A stretch of DNA of 64,000 nucleotides from Anaerovorax sp. IOR16 (GTDB lineage: Bacteria; Bacillota; Clostridia; Peptostreptococcales; Anaerovoracaceae): the NCBI RefSeq assembly GCF_017168145.1, contig NZ_JADQTL010000009.1, positions 496,001 to 560,000 on the forward strand, given 5' to 3'. Positions 30,394 through 38,322 of the stretch are shown one piece after another. The notes under the pieces are model-generated. The model saw only the letters and a program-made list of their open reading frames with translations, searched no databases and was not told the DNA's origin. Position numbers and translations under genes: made by a program. How positions within the stretch are numbered: the first letter of the stretch is position 1; the number at the start of each line of letters is the position of its first letter.

Positions 30394-30445
30394 TATGGAA
30401 GAAAATACAATAAATAGAGAGTCGAATGTTAGAAAGGAGAATAAA

Positions 30446-30685
30446 ATGGCTACCAAAGAAAAGGATCGTGAAGTTACTTTTAAAATCGGAGAACATTTTG
30501 GAGTGATATCCACTTCTGCAAATGGATGGCAGAGAGAATTGAACATGGTTTCCTGGAATGGGGGAGCAGAAAAATACGACCTTAGAGATTGGGACAAAGA
30601 TCATAAGTCGATGAGTCGTGGCATTACTATGACACAAGAGGAAGTTAAGGAATTGGGGAACTTGATTATTGACTTGAAATTGTAA
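30446..30685 (+). CDS. YdbC/PC4-like single-strand nucleic-acid-binding protein
   Basis: A 79-residue protein resembling the bacterial YdbC family of PC4-type (transcriptional coactivator p15) folds. Strands such as 'VTFKIGEHFGVISTSANGWQRELNMVSWNGGAEKYDLRDWDKDHKSMSRGITMT' precede one C-terminal helix 'QEEVKELGNLIIDLKL'. Such proteins bind single-stranded DNA or RNA. The ATG 30446 follows AAAGGAG; longer in-frame starts lie upstream of the SD. Monocistronic, with a consensus promoter and a strong terminator. Confidence 0.75.
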   Translation: MATKEKDREVTFKIGEHFGVISTSANGWQRELNMVSWNGGAEKYDLRDWDKDHKSMSRGITMTQEEVKELGNLIIDLKL

Positions 30686-30807: not shown

Positions 30808-31203
30808 TTATTCTAATTCAGCTTCTTTCAATGCAATTTGAGCACGTTCATTATCCACCACTTTAAGAATGAGTGGGGCTTTGCCGTCATTGGAATAACC
30901 ATACATATATGCTACATTTAAATCTACAGATAGAAGTGCTTTCAGTACACGATTTAAAGAGCCGGGAACATCCGGCATTTCTACGCAAAGAACATCGGTT
31001 ACTTTAATAGAGTAGCTTAAGTCTTTTAAGGCATTAACTGCTTTTTCAATATCATCTACAATCATACGAAGTACACCATATTCTGCGGTCTCTGCAATAT
31101 TAAGTGCTGAAATATTTACATTTGCTTCGTGAAGTGCTTCAGTGACTTCCATTAGTCTTCCGGATTCATTTTGGACAAAAACAGATAATTGCTTGATAAT
31201 CAT
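30808..31203 (-). CDS. tandem ACT-domain protein
   Basis: A 131-residue protein made of two ACT domains: 'KQLSVFVQNESGRLMEVTEALHEANVNISALNIAE' (N-terminal half) and 'VLCVEMPDVPGSLNRVLKALLSVDLNVAYMY' (from about 70). ACT domains bind small ligands, usually amino acids. This form is regularly found next to phenylacetate-CoA ligase in anaerobes, presumably as a ligand-sensing partner. The ATG 31203 is chosen because AAGGAAGG lies 8 bases upstream; the in-frame GTG 31212 overlaps that SD. It is 24 bases downstream of the ligase gene. Confidence 0.85.
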   Translation of the reverse strand: MIIKQLSVFVQNESGRLMEVTEALHEANVNISALNIAETAEYGVLRMIVDDIEKAVNALKDLSYSIKVTDVLCVEMPDVPGSLNRVLKALLSVDLNVAYMYGYSNDGKAPLILKVVDNERAQIALKEAELE

Positions 31204-31227
31204 TGTTTCCACCTTCCTTTGTAAAAT

Positions 31228-32526
31228 TTATATATGTCGTCTGTCTATAACTCGCTTCGCTTTGCCTTCGCTTCGCTGAATGGTTTTATGTTCCACTAGT
31301 TTAACTATAACACCAATACGTAGTACACTGTCAATTTTTTGTTTGATTTTTTTACGAATTTTTTCTAAATCTGCAATTTCATCAGTAAAATACTTATCAT
31401 CAATTTCAACCTGTAATTCAATGGTATCCATTGTACCTTGACGGTCAACGATAATCAGATAATGAGGTTTTGCCTCCGGCACTTCAAGAAGGACACTTTC
31501 AATCTGAGATGGGAATACATTGACTCCGCGAATGATGAGCATATCGTCAGAGCGGCCGCATACTTTGGACATTCTAGCGCTGGTTCTTCCGCATTCACAC
31601 GGTGTATGAGTAATGCTGCTTAAATCTCTTGTTCGATATCTTAAAAGAGGCATTGCTTCCTTTGTTAGGTGTGTGAAGGTTAATTCCCCAATCGTGCCGT
31701 CTGCAACCGGTTTTAAGGTATCAGGATCCAATATTTCCGGATAAAAATGATCCTCGGCAATGTGAAGCCCATTTTGGTTTTCACAGCTGATGGCTACTCC
31801 TGGCCCCATGATTTCAGAAAGTCCATAAATATCATAAGCCGTAACATTTAAACTTTCTTCAATTTTTGTACGCATTTCTTGGCTCCAAGGTTCTGCACCA
31901 AAAATACCGATACGTAAGTTTAATTGTTTTGGATCTACTCCGGCTTCTGCAAGTGCTTCACCTAAAAATAAAGCGTAGGAAGGAGTACATGCTAGAATAC
32001 TCGTTTCAAAATCTTGCATTAAGGTTAATTGATTTCTTGTATTTCCTCCTGAAATTGGTACAACTGCAGCTCCTAGTTTTGTTGCGCCATCATGAATTCC
32101 TAATCCTCCCGTAAAGAGTCCATAGCCATAAGCAACCTGTACGACATCTTCTTTTGTCCCTCCTGTACAGCAGATTGCTCTTGCGACACATTCAGCAAAG
32201 GTATCAAGATCTTTTCTTGTATGTGGAACAGAGGTTGGTTTTCCTGTAGTTCCGGAAGAAGCATGTATACGGACAAATTCACTTTTAGGTACGGAGCAGA
32301 GCCCGAAAGGATAATTGTCCCGTAAATCTTTTTTTGTAGTGAAAGGGAGCTTTACAATATCTTCAATGGTTTTGATGTCTCCCGGTTCTATACCAAGCTC
32401 TTGCATTTTTTTTCTATAAAATTCTACATTCTGATAAACACGTCCAACCGTATCTTTCAATCTTTCGCTTTGTAATGCGTGCATATGATCTCTACTCAAC
32501 GTTTCAATCGGTTCATTCCAATACAT
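31228..32526 (-). CDS. paaK: phenylacetate-CoA ligase
   Basis: A 432-residue acyl-adenylate-forming enzyme. The phosphate loop 'SSGTTGKP' is at about 90-97, the adenine motif 'YDIYGLSEIMGPG' near 235, and the hinge region includes 'GRSDDMLIIRGVNVFPSQIE'. It activates phenylacetate or another aryl acid to its CoA thioester using ATP. In amino-acid-fermenting anaerobes this serves salvage or disposal of aryl acids made from Phe, Tyr or Trp. AAGGAG is 8 bases before the ATG. The operon, with the ACT gene, is preceded by a T-box leader, which ties it to tRNA charging. Confidence 0.88.
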   Translation of the reverse strand: MYWNEPIETLSRDHMHALQSERLKDTVGRVYQNVEFYRKKMQELGIEPGDIKTIEDIVKLPFTTKKDLRDNYPFGLCSVPKSEFVRIHASSGTTGKPTSVPHTRKDLDTFAECVARAICCTGGTKEDVVQVAYGYGLFTGGLGIHDGATKLGAAVVPISGGNTRNQLTLMQDFETSILACTPSYALFLGEALAEAGVDPKQLNLRIGIFGAEPWSQEMRTKIEESLNVTAYDIYGLSEIMGPGVAISCENQNGLHIAEDHFYPEILDPDTLKPVADGTIGELTFTHLTKEAMPLLRYRTRDLSSITHTPCECGRTSARMSKVCGRSDDMLIIRGVNVFPSQIESVLLEVPEAKPHYLIIVDRQGTMDTIELQVEIDDKYFTDEIADLEKIRKKIKQKIDSVLRIGVIVKLVEHKTIQRSEGKAKRVIDRRHI

Positions 32527-32621: not shown

Positions 32622-32756
32622 ATGAGATGTTACAATGAATGCGCAGGGATTGACGATAGTCTTCTGTTCTTTTTTCTGTTGTTACTTGTAATCATTTGCA
32701 TGCCATCCATGTTTGGTTGCGGTGACATGAATAATAATGATAATTGCTGTTGCTAA
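32622..32756 (+). CDS. 44-residue Cys-rich membrane peptide
   Basis: ATG 32622 follows a strong AAGGAGGT. The 44-residue product starts 'MRCYNECAGIDDS', has one hydrophobic stretch (LLFFFLLLLVIICMPSMF) and ends in 'GCGDMNNNDNCCC'. Cys residues flank and follow the helix. No family recognised. It lies on the opposite strand between the T-box terminator and paaK, so it is antisense to the paaK leader transcript. The SD and composition argue that it is real. Confidence 0.55.
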   Translation: MRCYNECAGIDDSLLFFFLLLLVIICMPSMFGCGDMNNNDNCCC

Positions 32757-32773
32757 TTTTACATTAACTAAAC

Positions 32774-33051
32774 AAAAAGGGCTCCTCGTCTCGTAAGAGA
32801 CGGGAAGCCCGTGGTACCACTCTTCTTGCTGTGCTTAAAATAAGGATAAGCCTTCAGCCACTCAGGACAAATCATCCGTATCCCTGTAACGGGGGAAACC
32901 GTGTACACCTACTATTGCAAAATGCAGCGTTCAATGTACCAGCTCAAGGGGGAACTTGGGTGAACACATGTATCCGGTTCTCATCTATTCCGGATTCTCT
33001 GTATACATTGGTGAATCACTTACTTTACCCTGTCATCGCTTTTTATATATT
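32774..33051 (-). ncRNA. T-box leader (tRNA-sensing riboswitch), probably Phe-specific
   Basis: On the minus strand: Stem I opens AGC-GATGA-CAGGG with AGTA in the specifier loop (k-turn and loop-E signatures) and closes CCCTTG-A-GCT. The distal part has an AGAGA bulge and an ATCCGG/CCGGAT stem. The T-box AGAGTGGTACCACG (about 32824-32811) overlaps a terminator GGGCTTCCCGTCTC...GAGGAGCCC plus T5. The specifier-loop 3' strand reads CCAAGTTCC, so TTC (Phe, 32954-32952) is the best codon. TGGT in the T-box demands a tRNA ending ACCA, which suits Phe or Tyr and not bacterial Trp. Downstream gene: paaK. Confidence 0.85.
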
Positions 33052-33057
33052 GAGCAT

Positions 33058-33086
33058 ATAATACAACTACAAAATAAGTTTGTCAA
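33058..33086 (-). promoter_or_regulatory. sigma-A promoter of the T-box leader
   Basis: Minus strand TTGACA (33086-33081), 17 bases, TATTAT (33063-33058). Start expected near 33051, just before Stem I. Confidence 0.75.
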
Positions 33087-34907: not shown

Positions 34908-34924
34908 TTAAGTAGCAAAGATAA

Positions 34925-35034
34925 AAACACAGTTCCGGTTGGTAGTCCGGACGCAGGTAAATATCCTGTCAGTAACCTGCCCTCCCATGGGTTGTCCATT
35001 CTCTGCGTTTAATTTTTTTATGGGAGGAATGCAT
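34925..35034 (+). ncRNA. yjdF-type riboswitch leader (azaaromatic-sensing)
   Basis: The leader of a YjdF-family gene contains a folded segment starting at CAGTTCCGG/GTCCGGAC. It includes CAGGT/ACCTG and ends with CCTCCCAT (34981-34988), which is exactly complementary to ATGGGAGG (35020-35027), the SD of the next gene. This matches the known yjdF RNA, reported to bind azaaromatic compounds and to control translation by SD sequestration. The family match is by position and by the SD-masking helix, not by covariance search. Confidence 0.75.
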
Positions 35035-36908: not shown

Positions 36909-38322
36909 ATGGAAAAAACCAGATTGCCTAAGTTATGGGAAGCGTTGATTCCCGTTGTATTTATGATGGTATTAATCATCGTATGTACTGTGTATTGGAA
37001 AATTGAACCCCATGTCCCACTGGTATTGTCTTGCATTGTAACTGCATTTATGGCATGGAGATGTGGTTATAAATGGGATGCCATTATTTCAGGAGTATTG
37101 GACAGCATTGGAAGAGCAACGGAAGCCTTATTAATTGTAATGGTTGTAGGGTATGCTCATTGGTACATGGGTATGGTCGGGAACCATACCTGCAATGGTG
37201 TATTATGGATTGGATTTGATTTCACCAGGTGCTTTTCTTGTTGTCGGTACAATTCTTACTGCGATTGTAGGTCTTGCAACCGGTTCTTCTTGGACCGCTT
37301 CCGGTACTGTAGGTGTTGCGTTAATGGGCATTGCAATGGGCCTTGGAATCAATCCTGCTCTAGCAGCCGGTATGGTAATTTCAGGAGCTTATACCGGAGA
37401 TAAGTTATCCCCGTTATCTGACAGTACGAATGTTGCGGCAGCTGGTGCAGAAACACCGCTTTATGATCACGTTCGGGCTATGATGACAACGACCATCCCA
37501 AGTTTTTGTATGGCGCTTGTCATTTATGGGATTGTTGGAATGAAGGTTGTAAATGTTGATGGTTATGATGCAACAACAGCTATTGAGATTCAAAATGCCA
37601 TTGCAGATAATTTTTATCTGTCACCTTGGATCATGCTTCCGGTGGTTGTAGTCGTTATCGGTGCGGTTAAAAAAATACCGGCAATTCCTTCACTTTTACT
37701 TGCAGCAACTTGCGGATGCATTATTGCGATGATAGCACAGGGGGCATCCATTGCAGATTGCTTAGGTGCACTCCATTATGGATATGAAGCAGAAACAGGC
37801 AATGCCATTGCAGATAAGTTGTTAAATCGTGGCGGCTTAAATTCTATGATGTGGACGATTTCACTCATTATGTTCGCTCTTGCATTCGGAGGAATCCTAG
37901 AAAAATGTGGGTTTGTTGAAGTACTTCTTGGTGGCATGGTGAAAAGAGTAAAAAGCGTTGGCGGACTTGTGGTTTCCACTATTATAACGGGTATTGTCTG
38001 CGATGTCGTATTAACAGACCAATACTTAGCTATTTTAGTACCTGGAAGAATGTTTTCAAGAATATATGATGAAAAAGGCTTAAGCAGAAGCTTTTTATCC
38101 AGAACAACGGAGGACGGAGCAACTTTATGGTCTCCAATGATACCGTGGAATGGATGTGGTGCATACCAATCAGCAACCCTTGGTGTTGCAAATTGGGACT
38201 TCGCTCCTTATGCTTTTATGAATTTAATCAATCCAGTTTATGCAATCATCATTTCTTATCTTGGAATTGGGGTAAAATATGCCGATGAAAGCAAAAACCC
38301 TAGAAATAAAAAGGCAGCATAA
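36909..38322 (+). pseudogene. nhaC: Na+/H+ antiporter NhaC family, frameshifted
   Basis: Residues 1-81 from ATG 36909 ('ALIPVVFMMVLIIVCTVYWK...EALLIVMVVG') and the +1 frame from 37153 ('MLIGTWVWSGTIPAMVYYGLDLISPGAFL...') together make one continuous, about 470-residue NhaC protein with the expected membrane helices. The junction GTAGGG-T-ATGCTC (about 37146-37158) carries one extra base (T37152 or a G of the preceding run). Removing it restores 'VVGMLIGTW'. There is no slippery sequence, so this is an inactivating indel or an assembly error. The SD CGGAGG before the ATG is intact. Confidence 0.8.

Follow-up and report, generated by a model that had tools for sequence, protein, structure and literature searches.

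A T-box riboswitch for tRNA-Phe ahead of a phenylacetate-CoA ligase homolog suggests tRNA-controlled salvage of phenylacetate in Anaerovorax sp. IOR16 and related Clostridia

That anaerobes form phenylalanine from phenylacetate is old knowledge, and a 1965 work by Allison, going by its title, reportedly described phenylalanine from phenylacetic acid in rumen anaerobes. The locus described here would serve the same overall conversion as the one in that title, and differs in that a gene, a switch and a sensor are named. With respect to the enzymes, the closest described systems are the indolepyruvate:ferredoxin oxidoreductase (IOR) of Bacteroides with its AMP-forming arylacetate-CoA ligase, and the IOR of methanogens, the same enzyme pair as considered here (PMC13285125). 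That paper argues from chemistry that AMP-forming ligases favour acyl-CoA synthesis and proposes that the Bacteroides IOR beside such a ligase may be biosynthetic; which way the pair runs in gut bacteria remains a matter of debate. The term T-box has no occurrence in PMC13285125, whereas here a tRNA-dependent switch argues for the direction, and it does so in Clostridia. With respect to the RNA, a T-box activates its gene when the tRNA is uncharged, and the T-boxes collected in TBDB are of the same RNA class and use the same switch as our leader, which differs in that its target is a homolog of aryl-acid CoA ligases instead of a synthetase, a shikimate gene or a known amino acid transporter (PMC7778990). 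In C. difficile a T-box lies upstream of the ACT protein gene CD1564, a likeness to our locus taken from a partial text of the source (PMC11477304), while 'phenylacet' has no occurrence in the text of that paper. In the literature we found no account of a T-box before paaK or of a pairing between ligases and tRNAs, but the 2008/2009 T-box regulon surveys were not covered and TBDB may list such leaders. T-boxes, PaaK and IOR are known, and the RNA is an ordinary T-box; the putative novelty, which remains unproven, is a regulon that pairs a ligase clade with a tRNA.

When the window, which is the whole stretch of 64,000 nt that was analysed, was searched using cmscan, a single T-box was found. 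The T-box leader RNA (RF00230), from Stem I to the T-box, was matched on the minus strand at 33045-32793 (32793..33045) with 115.2 bits (E 9.2e-25; gathering score 93), and the match covered model positions 1-219, that is, all 219; Rfam also found T-boxes at 16 orthologs in the family. Just upstream of the leader, a sigma-70-type promoter (TTGACA-17-TATTAT; 33058..33086, minus strand) agrees with the consensus at 11 of 12 bases, although this is a consensus match only. The scanned stretch contained 4 promoter-like sites compared with a mean of 3.2 (sd 1.8) in shuffles, and since the number of sites stays at the shuffle level, the promoter is backed only by its position and quality. In Stem I, the specifier codon UUC (Phe) is located at 32952..32954 (minus strand), one base ahead of the CCCU strand: the 3' side of the specifier loop reads CAAG-UUC-C followed by CCCU, and the 5' side supplies AGGG as its pairing partner. 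The distal part of Stem I (32979..33000, minus strand) contains two T-loop motifs read from the sequence, AGAGA at 33000-32996 and UGAGA at 32983-32979, and motifs of this kind dock onto the tRNA elbow according to the part of PMC7583486 available to us.

The switch region is formed by two mutually exclusive structures. The antiterminator (32795..32824, minus strand; fold -8.4 kcal/mol) consists of helix A1 (AAGAG/CUCUU), a 7-nt bulge UGGUACC and helix A2 (ACGGG/CCCGU), and the UGGU of the bulge can base-pair with the ACCA end of tRNA-Phe(GAA), a tRNA that is present in the host genome. The intrinsic terminator hairpin with its U-run (U5) lies at about 32774..32810 on the minus strand (fold -23.3 kcal/mol). 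Both structures form by folding and have the CUCUU strand in common. A simple terminator scan found none, so the evidence for the terminator is the fold. A sequence-only reading had described the promoter, the Stem I motifs, the T-box bulge and the terminator, and its coordinates and anatomy hold according to the Rfam match, the folds and the consensus match. The Rfam match on the minus strand, together with the UUC codon, the tRNA-Phe(GAA) and the folds, likewise bears out what it had claimed about the presence of a T-box, its direction, its specificity for tRNA-Phe and paaK as its target. A chance match or a misread T-box is ruled out by the Rfam score, the T-boxes at orthologous loci and the covariation described below.

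AAGUUC is invariant across 17 aligned family leaders, so that conservation alone cannot set the frame of the specifier. As a control of the decoding, we compared the other T-boxes of the same genome (3.38 Mb in 12 contigs), which contains eight T-boxes, six of them above the Rfam cut-off. The other seven read AUC before ileS, UGG before a TrpB-like gene (trpB2), UAC before an SSF symporter, CUC before leuA, GCU before alaS, GUU before valS and UGG before a trpX-like gene. The trpB2, trpX and SSF genes were identified by profile match, whereas ileS, leuA, alaS and valS were named by eye; the trpX-like gene scores below its curated cut-off, and to read its codon, positions were counted from the base of the stem. 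At six of the seven controls the codon agreed with the amino acid of the gene; the seventh, the SSF symporter, cannot be judged because its substrate is unknown, and its assignment to Tyr comes from the code alone. The spacing from the base of Stem I, together with the six controls that fit, rules out a specifier shifted by one (GUU or UCC). In two-codon families one specifier is favoured in over 85% of cases, and UUU makes up only 1% of the Phe specifiers in Bacillales, according to the accessible part of PMC7778990.

The gene downstream of the leader, paaK1 (31228..32526, minus strand), encodes a 432-aa homolog of AMP-forming phenylacetate-CoA ligase with AMP-binding and AMP-binding_C_2 domains. 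It matched the full TIGR02155 model with 592.6 bits, which is under the equivalog cut-off of 646.3, and its closest solved relatives were the PaaK enzymes 2y27, 2y4o and 4r1l (E 3.2e-137 to 5.5e-125). Because the cut-off was missed, the substrate of PaaK1 is uncertain; from its sequence we regard it as a PaaK homolog and not as a proven PaaK, and phenylacetate is the probable substrate. The next co-directional gene, 3' of paaK (30808..31212, minus strand), encodes an ACT domain pair protein (PF19571, 86.9 bits). An ACT-like ORF was seen by eye at the same position in 25 of 26 relatives inspected, a count that excludes L123, and the exception was L120. However, five loci of family f11 with downstream DNA (L262, L263, L264, L267 and L268) have no ACT gene immediately 3' of paaK. 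These loci rule out the ACT protein as the true general target and leave paaK as the common one, so that of the paaK/ACT unit that had been placed under the T-box, paaK stands while the ACT gene as a necessary partner does not. Further along, a small PC4-domain protein is encoded on the plus strand at 30395-30685 (PF02229, 35.2 bits), and small ORFs like it recur 3' of the ACT gene in several relatives (by eye). Between the terminator and paaK lies an antisense ORF of 44 aa with an AGGAGG site (32622..32756, plus strand), which has no Pfam or NCBIfam match and was absent from the sequence-only reading. A scan of 28 family loci recovered its motif, a conserved core like GGIDDSLLFFFLLLV with a Cys-rich tail, at 12, including one without a T-box (L129), and we think of the ORF as a neighbour and not as part of the switch.

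We then surveyed paaK/ACT loci in related Clostridia, as the sequence-only reading had suggested, starting with 148 Anaerovoracaceae genomes and accepting as orthologs proteins that were 65% or more identical along their whole length (the gap to the next-best reached down to 56%). Full-length paaK orthologs were present in 28 genomes, and a T-box was found upstream in 17 of these by Rfam. A 29th ortholog (G094, 66% identity) was cut by a contig end; its T-box, reading UUC, was detected not by Rfam but by a profile built from the relatives (E 3.5e-46), which brings the total to 18 of 29, and this genome is outside the iorA, aroC and PDT surveys described below. Before the other 11 of 28 orthologs, no T-box was found by Rfam up to E 5 or by nhmmer below E 1, and two of these loci (L120 and L134) had little upstream DNA. 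At L129 the promoter-like site and the terminator hairpin are kept, while the T-box between them is absent (by eye). Outside the family, a Ruminococcaceae MAG (L043), one of 80 named loci, has a Phe T-box ahead of paaK by Rfam; within these 80, 13 loci and L043 were assessed by Rfam and the remaining 66 by motif only. A class-wide search of 391 genomes with the L043 protein gave 30 loci, of which the 16 positive by motif were passed to Rfam and all 16 were confirmed (13 in family f11 and three in family f34). At the other 14, which include one without upstream DNA (L233), motif and nhmmer searches found none. Counting once the contigs that we took to be the same from their matching lengths and positions (L011, L015 and L016 as L112, L124 and L126), Rfam places a Phe T-box ahead of paaK at 34 loci and the profile adds one more, and the specifier is UUC in 35 of 35. 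In all 34 Rfam leaders the specifier site reads AAG-UUC, and each leader has a hairpin plus a T-run.

The alignment of the 17 family leaders showed covariation, with 26 of 57 predicted pairs varying on both sides compared with 17.5 in shuffles. In this alignment 95.0% of cells were paired, compared with 85.3% in shuffles (0/500 as high) and only 40-47% when the structure was slid. The structure was derived from the same 17 leaders, which is a bias in its favour. Mapped onto a PaaK tree with 93 rows, the T-box label required 12 changes against 27.8 after shuffling (0/500 as low), a clustering that is inflated by near-copies among the rows; two main clades hold the T-box, which has been gained or lost inside them.

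Several PaaK clades coexist within the family, and a third clade (PaaK3) is split from PaaK1 by a 100/100 branch. PaaK3 genes mostly occur in iorA-iorB-paaK runs, and three of the 18 PaaK3 loci examined carry a T-box (the family listing holds 19, G140 was left out, and L271, L278 and L287 are among those on cut contigs). In G062 the T-box, found by Rfam with 99 bits, lies ahead of iorA-iorB-paaK3; in G002 it lies ahead of trpB2-iorA-iorB-paaK3 (E 1.8e-10) and in G028 between iorB and paaK3 (E 2.7e-8), the latter two found by profile and not by Rfam. As a control of the nhmmer T-box profile, reversed sequences gave one match at E 0.65; L226 belonged to the training set, so the evidence for that locus is Rfam. 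Read by eye, the specifier is UGG (Trp) in all three. The bulges of G002 and G028 are UGGC, fitting a tRNA-Trp whose discriminator is G, like that of the window's genome, whereas that of G062 is UGGU despite the Trp codon, an exception noted for many Trp T-boxes in the part of the TBDB paper available to us (PMC7778990). A TrpB-like enzyme (NF009057) is encoded under a Trp T-box at L096 4255-5990 and is followed, as far as seen, by no further trp gene, and a gene 70% identical to it heads the trpB2-iorAB-paaK3 run of L282; a lone TrpB-like gene under a Trp T-box suggests indole salvage.

The surroundings of the Phe T-boxes differ among the relatives. In L043 the order is T-box(Phe), paaK, SSF symporter, paaK2 and iorA, and the symporter shares 63% identity with the SSF protein that the window's genome encodes behind its Tyr T-box. 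This Tyr T-box (UAC) precedes two transporter genes at L097 3603-7023, one for the SSF symporter and one for a transporter of the short-chain fatty acid type, and these might take up tyrosine or 4-hydroxyphenylacetate. In G066 a second Phe T-box heads aroF-aroB-aroC-pheA-aroA (aroA by eye). That observation comes from six relatives with 53 T-boxes, of which 30 were extracted and 29 read; the other 23, including any pheST T-box, are outside the count. In G129, G061 and G081 the T-box sits between a second paaK and paaK1. In G009, where paaK1 follows closely behind the ACT gene of an upstream paralog, Rfam found no T-box between them. With respect to the oxidoreductase, IorA is present in the window's genome (IOR_alpha, 697.9 bits) with iorB adjoining (by eye), unlinked to paaK and without a T-box. 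IorA is also present in 24 of 27 family relatives; among the 16 T-box relatives searched it was not found in G061 and G031, and the genomes of f11 and f34 were outside this survey. Elsewhere, a T-box on iorA as a general feature was rejected, as among 28 iorA loci in 24 relatives only one (L164, in G062) had a T-box, and that one reads Trp. The window's genome also keeps the de novo genes aroC (chorismate synthase) and PDT (prephenate dehydratase). That the T-box tracks a loss of de novo synthesis was likewise rejected: aroC and PDT are missing in G107, which has the T-box, and in G062 and G010, which do not, all three being draft genomes.

Based on these observations, we suggest that a canonical T-box senses uncharged tRNA-Phe and turns on paaK for the salvage of phenylacetate to phenylalanine, a reading to which we give a probability of roughly 0.8 in the absence of bench data. 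When tRNA-Phe is charged, the terminator would form and the transcript would end. When phenylalanine is short, uncharged tRNA-Phe(GAA) would base-pair at two places, the UUC specifier and the UGGU bulge, and the antiterminator would hold. RNA polymerase would then carry on for some 250 bases to transcribe paaK and the ACT gene. While the RNA, its specificity, its switch helices, its target and its conservation are read from DNA, the metabolic part is inferred: PaaK would activate phenylacetate, scavenged or earlier excreted, to phenylacetyl-CoA, an IorAB-type ferredoxin oxidoreductase would carboxylate it reductively to phenylpyruvate, and an aminotransferase would yield phenylalanine. The ACT protein may add feedback from an aromatic amino acid. 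Since a T-box is on at amino acid shortage, enzymes under it should supply that amino acid, and given that a switch of this type also stands before the aro-pheA operon and trpB2, salvage is the simplest reading; the pairing of the Phe T-box with paaK in several anaerobe groups also suggests that phenylalanine is rebuilt from phenylacetate when short. The comparison favours the predicted anabolic direction, from arylacetate through aryl-CoA and arylpyruvate to the amino acid. Salvage with reductive carboxylation, which had been proposed from the window alone, is thus supported by comparison only (the L043 run, the aro-pheA operon of G066 and the Trp T-boxes with iorAB), and both the presence of aroC and PDT and the separate iorAB without a T-box speak against a need for it. 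Further points against the reading are the family and class-wide paaK loci that lack a T-box, the two T-box relatives in which IorA was not found, the PaaK score under the equivalog cut-off and the antisense ORF between switch and gene. Because aroC and PDT are present and the pattern of their loss among relatives does not match that of the T-box, the route in the window's genome would be a supplement to de novo synthesis and not a replacement.

Three other explanations were considered. PaaK could run in reverse in an oxidative fermentation of phenylalanine to phenylacetate, with the T-box exerting catabolic control. The wide occurrence of IorA is compatible with this, as is G071, where the neighbours of iorAB are a permease gene, an aminotransferase gene and genes like ptb and buk (L227 4858-11999, by eye), an arrangement as in amino acid fermentation, and an oxidative pathway of this sort was shown in a Clostridium according to the part of PMC13285125 available to us. 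However, the T-box raises expression at phenylalanine shortage, a state in which degrading the amino acid would hardly be useful, and the ligases of this family are AMP-forming. In addition, the aro-pheA operon of G066 is driven by a Phe T-box and a Trp T-box heads trpB2-iorAB-paaK3 in G002, and we consider catabolic control quite improbable. The G071 cluster itself looks like an oxidative fermentation operon apart from the T-box paaK. It is also conceivable, though unlikely, that the Phe T-box is real while PaaK1 acts on another acid (another aryl acid or the precursor of a secondary product), so that the link to phenylalanine would be regulatory only. The score below the TIGR02155 cut-off and the several PaaK clades of the family leave room for this; against it, the Phe code goes with PaaK1-type enzymes in 35 of 35 cases and the Trp code with PaaK3 in three of three, so that the code follows the enzyme clade, even if three is a small number.

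The remaining explanation is that the leader does not control paaK, its transcript serving or opposing the antisense 44-aa gene while paaK is transcribed from a promoter of its own. In its favour, roughly 250 bases separate the leader from paaK, and the antisense ORF in this interval has a good ribosome site, but a scan limited to the sigma-70 type found no promoter-like site on the minus strand between the terminator and paaK. Moreover, the ORF motif is absent at six of the 17 family Rfam T-box loci and at 17 T-box loci outside the family, and the T-box still precedes paaK at all of these. We give this explanation hardly any weight. Returning to salvage of phenylacetate under control of tRNA-Phe, if it is true, cells draw on phenylacetate, a metabolite common among anaerobes, to obtain an amino acid, and a paaK gene switched on only when tRNA-Phe is uncharged would be an internal witness for the anabolic direction, a question that would become testable gene by gene. 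The evidence leans, with less assurance, towards a wider regulon of tRNA-controlled arylacetate assimilation in anaerobic Clostridia, in which PaaK1 is paired with tRNA-Phe (phenylacetate to phenylalanine) and PaaK3 with IorAB is paired with tRNA-Trp (indoleacetate to tryptophan, beside trpB2 for indole), possibly together with Tyr-controlled SSF uptake. In such a regulon the codon of the T-box would predict the substrate of the ligase and set the direction of IOR/PaaK as biosynthetic, and the specifier could help to assign substrates in a large, poorly resolved ligase family.

Two further elements lie on the plus strand of the window. At 36909-38322, an NhaC/ArcD-like antiporter is apparently split into overlapping frames (36909-37403 and 37153-38322), which seems to reflect a frameshift or a sequencing error. 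At 34911-35015, an azaaromatic (yjdF) riboswitch (88.2 bits) is located ahead of a DUF2992 gene, with a MerR/GyrI-like gene upstream, and the yjdF riboswitch is present in G088 too.
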